DNA of 64,000 bases from Lobosporangium transversale (taxonomy: Eukaryota > Mortierellomycota > Mortierellomycetes > Mortierellales > Mortierellaceae): positions 806,001 through 870,000 of the forward strand of contig NW_019028988.1 in assembly GCF_002105155.1 (NCBI RefSeq), written 5' to 3'. A model generated the notes under the pieces. The model saw only the letters and a list, made by a program, of their open reading frames with translations, searched no databases and was not told the origin of the DNA. How positions within the stretch are numbered: the first letter of the stretch is position 1; every line of letters begins with the position of its first letter. This document shows positions 15,759-26,478 of the stretch, piece after piece. The position numbers and the translations under genes were made by a program.

Positions 15759-18182
15759 TAAGGGAATGAAGCGAACAAAAAAGAAAAAGAAAAAGAAAAA
15801 GAAATGCGCATAAGGAGATAGTTTTAATGATTAAGGAAGTAAGCATTAAAAGGAGGAAGAAATTAAAAAGTCAACCTTTTTTATATAATTGTAATGGCAT
15901 TAAAAGATGAAAACGATTTACTAAATAGGATCAAAGGGTACATTAAAAGGGAAAAAAGAAAAAAAAAAGTAGGATAGGAATCAAAGAAAAAGATACAGCC
16001 ATGGGCATTAAATGAATGGATAAGGGCTCTCTTTTCTTCACGCGAAATACCATCTATGGTTCTCAATTCCACCCTTTCTTCCTCGCATGAGGCATCGGTG
16101 TGTAGGGCATCTGTCTCTGAAGGTGCATCAGATTTCCTAAGATTATTGCTGTTATTACTGTTATTAGTGCAACATTAACACATGCAAGATTCACAATCGA
16201 GGCATTCTGATACGCTGCTGCATCTCATCGTCTGCCGTATTTGTTGCCACCACCGTCGCAGTACAGACTCGTTATAACAAATTAAAGCTCAAGGTGGATT
16301 GTAAAAATAGGCTGTATTTTTTTTTTTTTTTTTTTTAGCAGAATATATTACCTCGCAAAATGGCACACATTCTTTTTCTCGTCAAAGAAAGCTAGTCGGC
16401 CTTGGATATGAACCTTTCATTCTTCACGCGGCAAAGAAATTGTCCAAAAATAAGTAGATGGGTGATAACTTCGACGCGGGGCAATAGGCGGCCACAGATT
16501 GTCGAAATAAAGGTACTCTTACTTTTTTACCTAACCATTTATTCGTTGAGCATTGATCTAAACTGTAATATGCAACATTTGAAATAAGTAAAAAAAAAAA
16601 GACTATCCCTTAAACCGTCAACCTGGCAAATTTGCCATTATAAATGGGCCTAAAATCCAGCAATTCATGGGCATTGCCTTGAAATTTTATTTCGATGTCG
16701 AAATAAATGACCGAAAACTAAACTGGCTTCTTTATCTGTGCCAATAAAAAACTCTTGAAGGCTTTCGCATGACACTAGCATCCTCTTGGGGGGCCCATTG
16801 TGTTGTTTATTTATTGACTGGTGTAATAGAAGTGATAATATTCGCCATAGTATCGACTTGAAAGGAGGGCAGTCTGAGTTGATTCATTCTACCGCACCAT
16901 AGAGCTTGCTCGGCAAGACTTGATTTGTCACATCATTTGCTTCCTCGTCTTCTTGATATATCTGGGTTGGTAAACACTGCTAATAGAGTTTGTTGGGCCT
17001 GTTGAAACCAGAGGGAACCACAGCAACATATCATACCCAAGGTGATACAAATATCTCTGTTGGAGTGAGTGGTGAACTGTGTGGTTCAGATGTAGTGGAC
17101 ATGAACGGCGAAAGAATGCATCGAAAGGATGTGAGCGGTTATGAGAGCAAGGAAGAAGGGGTTGGTATACCTGTTAAAGTCCTTGGCAAGAGAGCATGAG
17201 TAGCAGTTGTGATCAAAAGTTGATTTCGGTGAGTCCGCATAACAATGGTATAGTTTCTAGACCCAATCTTCCACGTACAGCATTGCATTATTGGTGTTTT
17301 CAGACCTGGCACCAATCATGCGAGGTATTTCTTTTTCTGAGGATTCCTTGTGTTAAACGGCCAGACAGAAAGCTTAATAGACATACAGACACAACGGTGA
17401 AAAAAATGTACAGTATGTGAGCAAACAGTTGCTGTGTTTATTTGTTGTCTGCACATGTCTTCTTTCATCGCGGGCTTTTTTTTTCCTTTTTTGTTCGTCA
17501 ATCACTGTGTGCACGAATAAGCAGCTGGAGCATCTCTTTGGTTTCTGTACATGCATAAACACATTTTACATCGCGGCGTCTTATTTATTTTCTGCAATTC
17601 CAAAACACAAAACACAAGCGTTTTCCATTGGTGCCTCCAGAAGAAATAAACAAACTTTATTTTGGCGGCCACTCCACAATCATGCCATGGTTATAACAAT
17701 CCCTAGGAAAGGATGAAACGCGTCGGTATTAATCTCGCTTCTGTAATTCTAAATGCATATATATTGGTGATTGGTATCAACTATCAAGTTCGCACATACA
17801 CACACCAAACGACCGCCAAAAACCACCACTCTCGCTTCTGCTCTCCCTCCATCCACAAGGCGCTGCGCAATATCACCATTAACAAGGCACCGTCCAGTAA
17901 GAAAGGGTACTTAGCTAGCTTTTACTCCAAGCAATAAGCACATCACCTATCTCCGCCATTGATGCCGGAACCTGAGAGCCAACGAATATCTCTGCTTTAA
18001 CGCAATAGTACTGGGGCTGTTGGAGCAAAGAACGACATCTGAACCCATTCTCTGATAAAAAAGACTTTTTTTTTCTTTAGTTGTTACCTTTGACAAGGAT
18101 ATAATCACCAAGTCATATCTGTCAATGCATTTATTACCCCTGTTCAAAATTATAAATCATTAAATTCCTCACAAAGCAAGGG

Positions 18183-18432
18183 CCACTGCAAACAAAAGAA
18201 GCTGAAAAAAAATTGTATAACAAAGGATCGACATCAACACTATATGCTGTATACCAAGATGGTTTCACTTTGGTATCTCAATGCTATTTCTTCCAATCTG
18301 CCGTTCATGCGAGAGCTTGTATTTATTTGTCAATCTCTGCTATTGACTGGGACAAAACCCCAATCCAAACAAAGGAACTGAATAAAGATTGATGTGGCCT
18401 GTGAAGCAAAGGATCGATATCAAAACTATATG
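18183..18432. repeat. imperfect direct repeat pair upstream of FEN-Fanzor
   Basis: 18183-18246 and 18360-18432 share a similar layout (C-A-A-A-C-A-A-A rich start, then CAAAGGATCGA). The last 26 bp (18221-18246 and 18407-18432) agree at 24 positions. Copies are 186 bp apart. They lie within 500 bp of the start of the putative RNA-guided nuclease gene. Confidence 0.65.
18251..18276. other. 7-bp-stem hairpin
   Basis: ATACCAA (18251-18257) and TTGGTAT (18270-18276) form a perfect stem with a 12-nt loop. It lies between the two copies of the direct repeat. Significance unknown. Confidence 0.5.
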
Positions 18433-18704
18433 AGGCAATGATAAAACTCATCATCAATCCAGGATATAAAAAGGGATCATTGTCTTCCTCCTTCAAAGTC
18501 CCATCCCTTTTACCACTGCCACTTGTTCCTGTATCTTTCCCTCAATATTCTTTATCTATTCGCTTTGAATCTTTACACCATAAAAAGCTCATCCTTTTAT
18601 ACCTTTGTCGCTCTTTTTTTTTTTTTTTTTTTTTTTTCTTTTTCATTTCTTTTCATCACCATCATTTTTCCTTTTTTCTTTCTCTTTTCGCTTAGATATT
18701 GACC

Positions 18705-20699
18705 ATGGGGCTGAAGTCCTTCTTCAAACTGGTTGCGGATCGCGGGGTTTTACCTTCGGAAACTGACGTGGGCACTTTCTTGGCGGCAAATCTTGACCAT
18801 CCTGTTCATTTAGATCTCCTCGGTACGTTCTATTACGACATCCTCCGCAGAGTCGTCCATGCAAAGATGAAAAACGAAACCATCATTGATGTAGGAAGGT
18901 CCCTGGCACTCGAGATAAAGGATCTTTTCACAACGGACAACCTGACTATACATATTGATGGGGAACCTTGTACTGAGAAAGAAAAAGCAAGGACAGAACG
19001 GCAAGCCATAAGACAAAAAAATATGGACGCTTTGGAGAACAATATGAGCACCTTCGAGAGAAATTCTCGGAGTGGGGTATGGACTCGTCCTCAAGTCATG
19101 AGGCGTATCCAGAAGGGTCTTCGAGAAGTCCACACCCTGAGCGTCCAGGACAAGGATCAGCTGGCAACAGGCCTTAGTTCTGTCTTCGATGTCTGTCTGT
19201 GTGCATATGAAGCGGACCCATGCATAGGGTGCCATGATGAGGAGAATGATAGGATCGTGATATCCCAAGACTCTGATTTTTTTGCGTACGAACGAGTCTG
19301 CTTCCTAGTGCGACCCCTTCCGCACCGTAGACGGAAGTTTGGGGTTTACGACGTAGACAACGTTATCCAAGCACTAAGACTGCCAACACACGCGCATCTG
19401 GTGTTATTCTGTGCCATCGCAGGCAATGACTACTCAAGGAACCTCGAGACGTTAGGCCCGGTTAATAATCTTCGATTGGTTCGAAAGGTTGCGTGGAACG
19501 AGAACTACAATAAAATGCTTCAAGATTACCTCGGGGAAGCTAATAAGGTGTTGGGAAGGAACGTAGCCTCTGAGGAAGGCCGTTTCAGTGTAGCTCTCCG
19601 CATTTTTACTTCCGGCCATCAAACGTCGGCCCAAGCGTTACCATCGAACAATGAGTTCGATAACTTCAAGCAGCGTCTACTCAATGGAAAGGATCTTCGC
19701 CATAGAACGGCTCAGCAAAGGCAAGCGCAGCGCCGCAGAACGTAAGAAAGCTCAAGCTATAGTTTTTGGCCTTGAAACCAGACGTCCCCAATACTAATCG
19801 TTAGTCCCTTTCTTGAATAATGTAGAGGCGTACCATCATTCTATATAGCGGAAGGGTCACATAGGAACCAGTTCCGGCCCATCTTTTCTGACAAGCCGAG
19901 CATATTGAATGCGTGCACAGTTGATATCAGTAACTGCCGTCAGCACGATAGGCCGGGCCTTAAGCATCCACCACGTCGGAGAAAGGCAAAAAAGAAGCAA
20001 CAGAAAAAACAAAAGCGGAAGCACAAAGGCAAGAAGCCCCACAGGGCTAAAAAAGAAGGTGCACCAATTAGGAACTTGAAGGATGCTACGAAGGTTGATC
20101 ACAGCTACAGCAGTAAGCACCCTATCAAGGCCTTAACAATTGGGCCCCTTAAGGCCTCCATGGCAAGGAAAGGCGGACTGGACGCAGATGAAAGGGATAG
20201 TATTGCAAGCCAGATCCGAGGGGCAGTTGTTGTCCTCAACCGACTACGCCGCTATGCATACTGGGCGATTGCCTTGGACATTGAGAGGATCATGCGGTTA
20301 CCAGGGGCAGCAAAGTCGAGGAAAAAGGCACTGGACGAGGTCTTGGATAGCAATGATTATTCCTTCCGTCTCGCCACCCTTCTTTTGAGTGGTCAAGGTG
20401 GCCCCAATTCAGCTTATGCGAGGACAAAAAAACAAGGAAAGGCGGTAGAAACGCCCCATCATCACCTCGCTTATGAACATTTCAAGGCCACCACTGAACT
20501 TTCCCCAATAAAGGAAATAGACATCACATTGGGGGACGTCCAAGGCTTTGATCCCAAAAAGATCACATTTCCAAGAGCGTCAGACTTACTAATGGGCCAA
20601 GTACAGACATCATTAAGGCAGCACTACAGGAACGCAATGGTATAGCTTGTGTAGGGGTATTTTCATGCATATTCTGCAATCAAATGCTCTTTATTCACA

Positions 20700-20733
<34 letters not shown>

Positions 20734-22210
20734 TTTGATGTCGAGAAAACAAACGAAGATATGAGCGACATTGAGTTTTTTTTGCGGGAGAACAAAAAAG
20801 TGAAAAACTACTCAGACTTTCCTACGTCCCCCTGGTCACCCCGGTATGTGTATCTGTCTGAACACGCCCTAGTTGACATCCTCTGGGCGACCGAAGATAC
20901 CAAGCAGCTGCTGGAGCGTATTCTGCCTCTCAATAATGCTTCCAAGACTGCAATGTATGAGTGTGTACAGGGAACAAAAGGGGTTTTGATACAGGCTCTC
21001 TTTTGTGACATTGGAGGTGATCGCATGGTTCGTGGATATCAAGACAAAGTATCCCTGCAGTCACAGGACAAAGATCTAACTCGGTTCAAACTCAAAGGAA
21101 CGATTTCTACCAACGGTCTAGTTCTGAATCTACTTGCCTATGACACAACCCAGACGAAGAGACAGCAGCAGTCTGACGTAGATGAAGAAGACCCCAGCCA
21201 AGAACTGGAGCTTTCTCAGGGATTTCTCAACACGACGTGTTCAAAGGCGGCCGGTGAAGACCTAACAGATGAAGACTATGCAAACATAAACTGGAAGAGG
21301 AGCTCCAAGCTGCTTGAAAACGTTGAGCTCACATTCAACAAACCAGGGCGATGCCCATCCGCAAACACCACAACTATCGTCGGATGTGATCCTGGTATTG
21401 TTAACGCCCTTACGTTTTCCTCGCTGGACCCTCACAACCCTAACTTGCGGCAAACGGTAAAGGTGAGAAGCAGGTTCTTGTACCTCCCTGTCCTCCGCTT
21501 CAATCACCTGTTGAACAAAAGGAAGCGTGAAAAAGGAATGATTGAGGTTGAGAGCGCCATCCCTGTGTTTGGAAGGGATACGTATAATGAGTACTTTCAA
21601 TGGATGAACGAGGAGTCTCAGACACAGACAGGATCAGCGAATTTGGATGTGCTTCAAGAGTTCTACGAGTCCAGATGGCACCTGAAAAAAAATGGGACCT
21701 ACGAAAGGCTCAACGAGCTACGTTCGACTACGCGGTACAGCGAGTGTTGAAGATGCTTGGGGATAAAGGAGTACTTGTCGTCGGCCTAGGGTCCTTTGAA
21801 AGTAGTAAAGGAGTTCCCAGCAAGCACACTGCTATAACGAGACATCTTGTCACACAGGTATGGCTGTTTTTAAAAAAGTAAGCAAAGCTGGAAAGCCATA
21901 AAACCCTTGCTAATAAACGACTGCCATTTGAAACGCTTAGGTCAAAGCACGAGGACACTTCGCTGTAGGAGCGCACGAATTTTACACCAGCGCCCGCTGT
22001 CCCCGACCCCTCTGCGATAGCTTTTTAGAGACGGTGTACCCTCGCTCTAAATATTGCAGGACATGTAAGGTATTCTTCGACCGTGACGCAGTAGGGGCGG
22101 AAAACATCGCAAGAATCGGTCTTGCTCAAATTGAGAGACAAGAGAGACCTGCAAAGTACAAGCCCACGGAAGAGTCGCCTGCTCCGGCTGCAAAGCGCGC
22201 ACGACGCTAG
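18705..22210 (+). CDS. FEN1/XPG-like nuclease fused to Fanzor (eukaryotic TnpB-type) RNA-guided nuclease; one frame break
   Basis: Four exons join in phase: 18705-19741, 19826-20639, 20734-21857 and 21941-22210. They give about 1081 residues if the frame break at 21685-21693 is crossed. The start ACCATGG gives MGLKSFF, the canonical MG-start of XPG/FEN enzymes. FEN-like acidic residues sit at near-FEN1 positions: D37 (VHLDLLG), D85 (HIDGEP), E169/D171 (YEADP), D189/D191 (SQDSDFF), and D242 in GNDYSRNLETLG, the helix-turn-helix. About 393-425 is Lys/Arg-rich (probable NLS and nucleic-acid binding). The C-terminal half has the TnpB/Fanzor order: RuvC-I GCDPGIVNALTF (about D836), KWDLRKAQRATFDYAV, RuvC-II region VVGLGSFESSKG, zinc ribbon CPRPLC...YCRTC, and RuvC-III DRDAVGAENI (about 1040). 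Introns of 83-94 nt show a eukaryotic gene. Fanzors are RNA-guided DNA nucleases. The joint role with a flap nuclease is inference. Separate genes are less likely because no stop or start intervenes. Confidence 0.85.
21685..21693 (+). promoter_or_regulatory. A8 frame-break / candidate -1 slippery site
   Basis: The upstream frame reads CTG AAA AAA AAT and ends at TGA 21748-21750. The conserved Fanzor sequence resumes as TGG GAC in the -1 frame. Positions 21687-21693 are A AAA AAT, a fit to the X XXY YYZ slippery rule. A one-base homopolymer indel is the simple alternative. Confidence 0.6.
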
Positions 22211-22221
22211 ACACAAGTATT

Positions 22222-22239
22222 TGGGTGCCGGCACACCCA
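22222..22239 (+). other. 6-bp hairpin just after the FEN-Fanzor stop codon
   Basis: TGGGTG (22222-22227) pairs with CACCCA (22234-22239) around a CCGGCA loop, 12 nt after the stop. In TnpB/Fanzor loci the guide RNA scaffold lies at or beyond the 3' end of the nuclease gene, so this is the first place to look. A role is not shown. Confidence 0.45.
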
Positions 22240-22493
22240 CAAAAAATTTGTAAGTTCTGTTTATTTTCGTCTCCTGTATCCATCCTCTCTAATCTTTTGC
22301 CCCTGAATTTCTGGACTAACTTTAAAAACCGTACAGATCAACAGATACACCGAGGCGAAACTACCAAAACTGATCAATCCTCTATCCCTATGGAAGAGAA
22401 CAACAAGAGTAATATCATTCAAAGCCCTATTTACATACAGCTTTTCAGACTTTTTTAATTTTTTATTTATTTAAGAGTTTGATGAAAGCTGGT

Positions 22494-23867: not shown

Positions 23868-24764
23868 TTAGGAAGACTTTTCAAGTCTTTGCAACCAGTT
23901 GCGAAAGGTCGTTGTCGTTGGCGTTTTGAGAAACTGATTAGGAGACCGGATATCAAATCTACCCACTTTATTATCGCTCCTTTTCACTCGTATTGAACGA
24001 TAATGTAGGCTTTGTTCTACGTCTCCATGTTTGACCTCATCGTGTGAGGAATTAGGAATCCATATAACGATCTCAAGGTTATTTTTTGAAGCTAGTATGC
24101 TCCTCTTGGAAGAGGGTTGAGATAGCTGTGGTGTTGAAGGAGCTGTCTGGAGTCTTAGTGGTATTGTTGTTGTTGCAGGACAAGCTGGTTGTTGCTGGCG
24201 CTCAACCAAGGAGAGCTCTCCATAGTCAGAATCAGCAGTAGTGGGATAACACAATGACCTGCTGCTCTTTTCTACTTTCCTATCGTATCGCTGGGGGACC
24301 TCATATGTATACCCACAACTGCCTAGTTTCTCTAGGCAAAGCTTGATTGGTCGTTGCTCTCTATGTCTGGAATCTAAGCTTATATTCGGGCACTGTAGAA
24401 TACTATCCATTTCAATGCTTTCACCAATTCGTCCACGGGAAGGTCGATATCCACGCGTGTAGAAAGTCCCTTGGATCGAAGGTTGGGGACGTGGTGAAGG
24501 AGGAAGAATCACATCCGAGCCACGAGAGAATGGTTTGGGCAAGCCGTCTACAAGGTGAGTATGCCTGTGTACTGTTTTCTTTTTCTGCGATAAACGAAGT
24601 GCGTTGAATGCTCTTGAGATTTCCTTCCTTGCCTGGATTCGACCCTTCCTTTTTCTGAATTGAATACTTTCAGGAAACCCCCGCTGATTTTTATCAGTTT
24701 TATGCTTCCACGGTGTAAATATTGCCTTAATGCTGTTCACCCAAGTGGGAAGAATGGGTAACAT
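23868..24764 (-). CDS. hypothetical protein, 298 aa
   Basis: A single uninterrupted ATG-started ORF, long for the local AT content, ending TGA/TAA-free until 23868. The N-terminus MLPILPTWVNSIKAIFTPW is hydrophobic/amphipathic, followed by a basic, Arg/Lys/Ser-rich body (RKRKGRIQARKE, SSKRSILASKN) and the end FRNWLQRLEKSS. No known family was recognised. The basic, low-hydrophobicity composition suggests a disordered or nucleic-acid-associated protein, but this is weak. It lies head-to-tail behind SPC3. It could be a chance ORF. A possible upstream exon at 24817-25002 was not supported. Confidence 0.4.
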   Translation of the reverse strand: MLPILPTWVNSIKAIFTPWKHKTDKNQRGFPESIQFRKRKGRIQARKEISRAFNALRLSQKKKTVHRHTHLVDGLPKPFSRGSDVILPPSPRPQPSIQGTFYTRGYRPSRGRIGESIEMDSILQCPNISLDSRHREQRPIKLCLEKLGSCGYTYEVPQRYDRKVEKSSRSLCYPTTADSDYGELSLVERQQQPACPATTTIPLRLQTAPSTPQLSQPSSKRSILASKNNLEIVIWIPNSSHDEVKHGDVEQSLHYRSIRVKRSDNKVGRFDIRSPNQFLKTPTTTTFRNWLQRLEKSS

Positions 24765-26478
24765 GACGAATTAGATAAGAGGGAGATGGATAGAGCAAGA
24801 GAAAATGATTCTGCGACTAGCAGATCTTAAACTCACTGTTTTTCAGGGTTTCTGCCATCTTGAAATACAATTTGACACGATTGAGAGTCACAGGGTGATA
24901 CCGACAAAGATGACCCAGATGTATCCACAATAGTGCTTTTATCAGTGAATATTGTCCGATGATTCCGATAGTCCTATGGGCGCTTCGTGTTTGTGAACTC
25001 ACGAAGCACTTTTTTCCTCCTCGAGTAGGCTAAGAGCTTCTAGCCTTTACTAACTGAAGTGTAATCCATGCATGCCTCTGTGGATTGTATCTCTCTTTAA
25101 ATTTGTAACGTCGACATTATTCTCCGAGTTTACCATGGGCCCACACATAAATAGTGAACCTCAGAAAAAAAAAAAAAAAGCATGCCGCAATTGATGCTAC
25201 TATCACAGGATCACTCAGCCTCGCATATTGACCACCACCCACTTCATTTTTTAGCCACACTTCGGTGACTATACCTGTCCCTACAAAGCTCAGCGATATC
25301 TAGCCCTATTCCCCTTTGAATAGTAGGTTTAGAACCGATCCTGAGTCCTTTATCTTCACTCCCGCCTTCACAGCATAACTCCCAGTACAAAAATATCACC
25401 TATTGTTCCAGGTTCGCTTGCTTGCGTCACAAGGCGCAATAAGACTGCGCTACTTTGTCAGTGTTCTGTTGGATTTAAGTAGAATTAAGGTAATAACAGC
25501 AACAAGTGTTGTAGCTGGTCCACCTTTACAATCATAGTTTAGCAATGGCTCCCGCCCTACTCGAAGGGAAAAGGAGCGGGAGAGTGGAAGGGGGAGGGGA
25601 TCTTTGACTGAAACAGTGTCTTTGCAGACTTGGTAACAATCAGCTGCGCTGAGAACTTATGACATTGCTTCTCGAATGGTTTGACCAGCGAGTTCCTCAC
25701 GCAGTGGTAGTAAGTCCATTCTTGTACCACATAGTCCGAATACAATGTTGTATCAACTCTCTCTGTCTTCACTTGCAATCCGTTACAATGATGCTTTATC
25801 GGCCCTCATCCTCCTAGGTAAACGTAGGGCCTTGTTTTAGCTTCGAAATGCTCTGCTTGAGAAATATTCAGTCAAGAATAAAAGACTTTATAATACATGA
25901 AATAGGGATATTGCCAACAACAGTAACAATAATGAGTTGGAAATATTGAAACTAAAACTCGAGCTTATTCTTGGTCATTTTCTGATCTAGAGCACTGTAC
26001 TACGGAAGCTATAACAATAGCCATAGTGAGCTACTTGTCATTGACAGACATACAGAGTAAACTAAAATGTTCTGCTGCGAAAGGTTGTACGGGTATGACC
26101 ATTGCTATAGCATTAGGGCCGCGTATAAAATGCTCGGGGGCCATGAGGTCCTAGCCCTTAATGGAACCGAGAAACCTGCACTTACTTTGTGCCTTGTCTT
26201 CCCGCTGCAACTATTGTTTTCACTTTGACTGCTGTGGTTACGCCAAAATGAGCCAAATGAACAAATCAAAAAGGTTTCTTGTGAAAATATGAAAACCAAG
26301 AGGCTAGACAGTGGATCTCAAGATGATCATAGCAAATAGTGGGGATTCTGACATTTCAAACATAGCTTGATGGAGAAACTGGTTGTGACGAACGCTTGAA
26401 TAATGGGTACGCCAGAAGACACAAAACTAAGGACAGATAGTATAAACAGCAAGACTAGATGCTTCGATGCATGCTTTG

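Follow-up and report, generated by a model that had tools for sequence, protein, structure and literature searches.

Does a Fanzor RNA-guided nuclease of the soil fungus Lobosporangium transversale truly carry a FEN/EXO1/XPG-type 5' nuclease in the same polypeptide, and if so, what might this second nuclease do for the mobile element encoding it? This question is raised by positions 18705-22210 of a stretch of 64,000 nucleotides (the window; G000:C2:806001-870000, C-numbers denoting contigs) from the 42.7-Mb L. transversale genome. The gene sits in a repeated element, hereafter family 1, among whose tested open reading frames (ORFs) no other gene was recognised. We read its layout as follows:

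18705..19741, plus strand: exon 1, FEN/EXO1/XPG-like nuclease domain, residues 1-345
19742..19825, plus strand: intron 1, phase 2, GTAAG...TACTAAT...TAG, with a stop at the donor if retained
19826..20639, plus strand: exon 2, with the conserved segment at the junction, the Lys/Arg-rich linker (about 19974-20054) and the start of the Fanzor REC part
20640..20733, plus strand: intron 2, phase 0
20734..21684, plus strand: first part of exon 3, coding for the Fanzor REC/WED region and for RuvC-I, whose DPG lies at 21388-21396
21685..21692, plus strand: A-run, frame change in the window copy
21693..21857, plus strand: rest of exon 3, read in the other frame, with the RuvC core
21858..21940, plus strand: intron 3, phase 0
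21941..22210, plus strand: exon 4, RuvC-II glutamate, C4 zinc ribbon, RuvC-III DRD and stop (22208-22210)

The exons 18705-19741, 19826-20639 and the one beginning at 20734 join in frame via GT...AG introns, and the donor pattern of intron 1 is present in 26 of 30 FEN loci. The predicted product of the element family, and the sole one recognised, is a fusion of about 1080 residues, probably made from a single transcript, in which the 5' nuclease (residues 1 to about 320) is followed, at about 395-425, by a basic linker resembling a nuclear localization signal and, at about 456-1080, by a complete Fanzor1. A first-pass annotation, made from the DNA letters alone, had described such a Lys-rich linker with Fanzor parts behind it, and we recovered both, the full-length Fanzor1 being encoded by exons 2-4. 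Its description of one spliced frame has to be amended for the window copy, where RuvC-I, zinc ribbon and RuvC-III are all present and are split over two frames. The frame upstream of the A-run at 21685-21692 reaches a stop at 21748-21750; the other frame continues RuvC and leads, past intron 3, into the RuvC-II glutamate, the zinc ribbon and RuvC-III, so that the break falls between RuvC-I and these later parts. At this point of the gene the single frame holds for most of the other measured copies: among 30 Fanzor loci, counting that of the window, the A-run could be read in 23, 15 of which are in frame, and because these copies keep the frame we rejected programmed frameshifting or slippage as the default explanation.

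The substrates of FEN/EXO1 enzymes are 5' ends and flaps, and exon 1 encodes a nuclease of this FEN/EXO1/XPG type. All seven metal-binding acids are present in the window sequence and in those of two further element families described below, and the residue numbers given for them in the first-pass annotation (D37, D85, E169/D171, D189/D191, D242) are exact; the GNDYS helix-turn-helix region was found as well. Six of the seven acids are invariant in five aligned sequences, D189 being replaced by N in P0008, a protein from Mortierella sp. GBA43. The alignment also keeps K92 and R99, which we take to be the equivalents of K93 and R100 of FEN1. A structure check, as had been proposed, returned the FEN fold over about 270 residues with EXO1 and FEN1 as the closest matches, at 12-17% identity. 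Profile searches, likewise proposed, had a divided outcome: exon 4 exceeds the cut-off of Pfam PF07282 (27.9 versus 26.3 bits, E 2.7e-6), and the FEN domain of the window stays below that of XPG_I (15.9 versus 24.9 bits), which a family-3 relative (C13:672316-672525) passes with 25.9 bits. In family 1, the ratio of nonsynonymous to synonymous changes (N/S) is 0.61 for FEN (25 copies), 0.67 for exon 2 (27 copies) and 0.30 for Fanzor exon 3 (29 copies); for changes common to at least three copies, the corresponding values are 0.51, 0.86 and 0.23.

Membership of the second half in the Fanzor group is supported by the motif of Bao and Jurka, D-X(125-275)-[TS][TS]XX-C4-X(5-50)-RD. This motif is present in the fusion protein (about 170 residues from D836 to TS1007, Cys 1011/1016/1030/1033, DRD at 1038-1040) and in P0009, and it is divided over two frames in the window copy. 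Whole P0009 scores 25.7 bits with PF07282, just below the cut-off. SpuFz1, the Fanzor1 of the Spu-1 element of Spizellomyces punctatus, is the best-ranked solved fold for a low-confidence model of the Fanzor half; in sequence searches of the PDB, SpuFz1 was found at an E-value of 0.15 by P0009 alone and of 0.066 by alignment A3, and the family-3 Fanzor alone gave no match at E 0.01.

The fusion is not restricted to family 1. Across the genome, 121 stretches match the FEN exon; 11 of them, counting that of the window, align over 341 or more of its 346 residues with 90-100% identity and no stop. Family 2 comprises 14 copies whose 341-aa FEN frame is intact and 30-31% identical, and a Fanzor zinc-ribbon match follows 2.0-3.0 kb downstream on the same strand in 14/14. 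The intron predicted to separate its FEN part from the remainder is identical to that of family 1 in position and phase, and the coding sequence at the junction is kept (FYI....RYRPVF...NC.QHDRP versus FYI....QFRPIF...NC.QHDRP, families 1 and 2 compared). The decayed family 3 combines a FEN of the same type with a Fanzor zinc ribbon of more canonical form; of the related loci, those on C79 and C93 were read over part of their length, and a further one is on C59. Genome-wide, a same-strand FEN match lies at most 6 kb upstream of 38 of the 69 PF07282 matches, against an expectation of 0.44, a count that relies on 91 places from 127 listed FEN matches, with amplified copies that are not independent. 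FEN matches lie downstream, on either strand, in 2/69, and a query with the family-3 FEN adds three PF07282 matches with FEN upstream. A search for the same domain order in other Mortierellales, suggested in the first-pass annotation, led to another fungus of the Mortierellaceae, Mortierella sp. GBA43, in which P0008 is annotated as one protein of 998 aa, spans the junction and is 46% identical over the whole query. P0008 and P0004 were the sole homologues among 8000 scored candidates, in a search partly spent on Lys-rich words; a protein search with the FEN exon found seven proteins, all from L. transversale. The first-pass annotation had agreed to give up the fusion if no orthologue with both domains existed anywhere. 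This objection falls because the fusion recurs in three divergent families of the genome, two of them beyond that of the window, and in the Mortierella sp. GBA43 protein. On comparative grounds, and because its order recurs in this way, we conclude that the FEN-Fanzor fusion is real, old and selected. A viral origin was tried and rejected; a scan of viral contigs with the fusion alignment found no relative. Matches in a viral fold library (E <= 0.001) were mostly named FEN/XPG-type viral proteins, with some unnamed, and are uninformative on fusions.

The ends of the family-1 element and its flanks are located as follows, the target-adjacent motif (TAM) and guide being predictions:

16606..22345, plus strand: family-1 mobile element of 5740 bp, TCCC...CAGA with a one-base ambiguity at its ends, lacking terminal inverted repeats
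16602..16605, plus strand: left-flank ACTA, predicted TAM
22211..22345, plus strand: 3' region, candidate omega-RNA scaffold, positioned as in known Fanzors (PMC10711439)
22346..22365, plus strand: right flank beginning with TA, predicted guide; right flanks vary between copies after TA

DNA matches of other Fanzor loci end at 22347/22348 in 22 of 29, and other matches of the 5' region start at 16596-16604 in 28 of 39. Copy C14 lies inside a repeat of which four relatives, 82-85% identical, are unoccupied, and joining its left and right flanks restores the site without duplication, with the element TCCC...CAGA between A and T; the target-duplication check for family 1 comprises this one empty site. 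The bases before TCCC at C14 and at C37:47.4k are flank and not element, and of copy C53 (L089) only a 5' fragment is present. Compared with Pfam, another seven ORFs from the 5' region had sub-threshold matches only and no transposase domain. Folding of the element ends in the window as DNA was unremarkable (z 0.07 and 0.03, the 3' piece ending one base short); the 5' end of an older family-1 subfamily can form a small hairpin (z -1.57). Family 2 has terminal inverted repeats, TAGCCCGTTCCATT/TAGTCCGTCCCATT, with 12 of 14 identical, and TA after the 3' end in four of five read, and thereby shows the TA-target, inverted-repeat pattern of Tc1/mariner-like elements. In the ORF lists of its copies L087 and L088, for which no transposase search was made, the longest frames are FEN and Fanzor.

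At the left flank of the young family-1 subfamily, ACTA occurs in 12 of 15 distinct flanks, AATA in two and GCTA in one, counting the duplicated flanks C50/C48 and C82/C39 once and keeping the older subfamily out of the pool. For family 2, 12 of the 14 left ends tried were found, and G stands before TA in 12/12 (TG for TA in one). AC stands before a fraction of 0.056 of the TA sites in the window. Judged by these sites, the odds are 4e-13 for ACTA and 5e-9 for G-TA, rough values since the copies do not count as independent draws. The TAM found by experiment for SpuFz1, CATA, is made up of the CA that precedes the left repeat and of TA (PMC10432273); by this parallel, ACTA (family 1) and G-TA (family 2) are predicted TAMs. 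This TAM-like motif, the frame break and the repeated element are additions to the first-pass annotation. At L088:5943-5947 (C37:47.44k), a family-1 element sits exactly at a family-2 3' end (GGACTA), which provides ACTA.

That a Fanzor would use the right flank as guide and cut the empty site follows established TnpB/Fanzor logic (PMC10711439, PMC10432273). Our working model, in which we place about as much trust as doubt, extends it by a trimming step. The Fanzor half would take up an omega-RNA whose transcription starts from the element's right end, with the right-flanking sequence as guide and the left-flank ACTA or G-TA as TAM, and would cut the unoccupied target site on a sister or homologous chromosome. 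The tethered FEN/EXO1-like half would then trim 5' ends or flaps to yield a recombination-competent end, and the element would be copied into the break from the occupied chromosome. Cuts by SpuFz1 leave 5' overhangs (PMC10432273), and the economical reading would be a tethered FEN half that prepares the break for copying by homology. The phase-2 intron 1 with its GTAAG donor places a stop immediately at the splice site (19740-19745), and likewise in family 2; intron retention would therefore yield a FEN-only protein. A bolder proposal, less likely than not, is a self-contained RNA-guided "cut-and-resect" homing enzyme that would steer repair towards copying of the element, with this FEN-only isoform as a built-in switch.

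Several observations weigh against the cutting-and-trimming model. The window copy is itself frame-broken in its Fanzor half, and RNA folding of 22150-22364 revealed no unusual structure (z 0.87). Since no transposase was found, the first insertion is left unexplained. The older family-1 subfamily has NTTA instead of ACTA on the left in 8/8 legible ends (that of C55 is not legible). FEN is under weaker constraint than Fanzor, and the N/S of exon 2 in shared changes argues against strong constraint there. P0008, besides its N for D189, has an annotated model that stops before the zinc ribbon. Finally, 28 of the 69 zinc-ribbon matches have no upstream FEN match in the lists used, nine of these 28 being apparently FEN-less family-2 derivatives; FEN may consequently be dispensable in cis.

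What else could the FEN half be doing? It might serve excision or integration in place of a transposase, with the Fanzor half only protecting or recopying the element. The lack of a transposase domain in the seven tested 5'-region ORFs, the insertion without duplication at the one empty site found and the hairpin of the older subfamily would fit; yet TA duplications and short inverted repeats set family 2 apart from family 1 although the protein is of one kind, one shared FEN consequently fails to explain the ends, and the terminal folds in the window are ordinary. We regard this role as unlikely. We also think it improbable that the FEN half processes RNA in the manner of other PIN/XRN-like nucleases and trims the mRNA of the element or its omega-RNA, given that its closest matches, EXO1 and FEN1, are DNA enzymes and that the equivalents of FEN1 K93/R100 are retained.

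A captured, non-catalytic DNA-binding module would agree with the weaker constraint and with the N at one acid in P0008. Against this quite unlikely reading stand the seven acids in the family-1, -2 and -3 sequences, six of them invariant throughout the alignment, together with K92/R99. Very unlikely, in our judgement, is a gene-prediction artefact in which FEN and Fanzor are two separate genes of one element. Retention of intron 1 would indeed make FEN alone, but no in-frame start is present in the conserved coding segment that connects the halves: in family 1 there is no in-frame ATG before the Lys-rich linker, and the segment is therefore translatable only via splicing to exon 1. The identical predicted intron phase in two families, the colinearity of the halves and the single annotated protein in another species likewise speak for a fusion.

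Further observations concern the elements themselves. The traits expected of a Helitron, a 5' TC end, an A|T target and no target-site duplication, would fit the one empty site of family 1, whose alignment is ambiguous by one base. The element is not filed as a Helitron because its right end is ...CAACAGA and not CTRR; no RepHel protein was found among the element ORFs tested. The genome holds 34 Helitron (PF14214) matches, including those on C39, C60, C94, C114 and C122, and their frames, several of them long (up to 1509 aa), could mobilise elements in trans. The family-1 copies C14 and C66 (L042/L043) have a common right flank and different left flanks, through either recombination between copies or a double insertion beside the same repeat. 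In family 2, an antisense piece of the family-1 Fanzor exon 3 lies upstream of FEN (L088:802-1352, minus strand, likewise L087) and beside most FEN places of this family; it matches window 20926-21477 with 84.8% DNA identity, contains stops, and could act against family 1 or be a passive capture. The nine apparently FEN-less zinc-ribbon matches (C24:582-586k, C33:633-636k, C36:5.8-8.6k, C53:482-485k, C59:0.4-3.2k, C85:109-112k, C87:229-232k, C102:114-117k and C117:744-748k), each near such a piece, are apparently internal-deletion derivatives of family 2 that multiplied. Downstream of the element in the window, 23868-24770 (minus strand) is a 300-aa open frame with no Pfam match at E 0.1.

The literature searched contains no description of a FEN-Fanzor fusion and no paper combining Fanzor with XPG, Mortierella or Lobosporangium; an earlier mention is possible, for instance in the Sci. 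Adv. 2023 Fanzor survey. The terms XPG, FEN1 (FEN in PMC3627910), flap and exonuclease are absent from the main texts of PMC3627910, PMC10711439, PMC10432273 and PMC11423790, and in the review PMC12719977, the single paper found to contain both words, FEN1 is mentioned for prime editing and Fanzor occurs in the reference list only, the two being unrelated. The biological role of Fanzors is stated as unknown (PMC10432273). An end-processing nuclease kept fused across divergent families and two genera hints at the events after the RNA-guided cut, and suggests that a mobile element not only cuts at a chosen site but also readies the resulting ends for its own copying. Through the FEN acids, a "cut and copy" model for eukaryotic Fanzors becomes directly testable, and the fusion offers a natural design in which a 5' nuclease is tethered to a programmable one.

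Among known systems, FEN1, EXO1 and XPG resemble the first half in fold, the seven acids, the K93/R100 equivalents and the GNDYS helix-turn-helix region, but these structure-specific 5' nucleases are repair enzymes, whereas the FEN half is part of a mobile-element protein and lies under the XPG_I cut-off. The IS200/IS605 TnpB elements share with family 1 the fixed left flank, the free right flank, the absence of a visible duplication and an RNA-guided nuclease encoded within the element; unlike them, family 1 is eukaryotic and spliced, has a FEN half, and no TnpA was found. The viral mariner elements PGv-1 and Mariner-2_PGv carry Fanzor beside a separate GIY-YIG or restriction-like nuclease (PMC3627910), so that a second nuclease likewise travels with Fanzor in one element, albeit of another fold and without fusion. 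SpuFz1 shares the RuvC DPG, E and D and the C4 zinc ribbon; both proteins are encoded in a repeated fungal element in which no transposase was found, and in both the left-flank motif ends in TA. SpuFz1, at 633 aa, has no FEN half (PMC3627910), and most Fz1 proteins measure 600-700 aa (PMC11423790); in the L. transversale fusion, by contrast, a FEN domain and a basic linker stand before a full Fanzor1.
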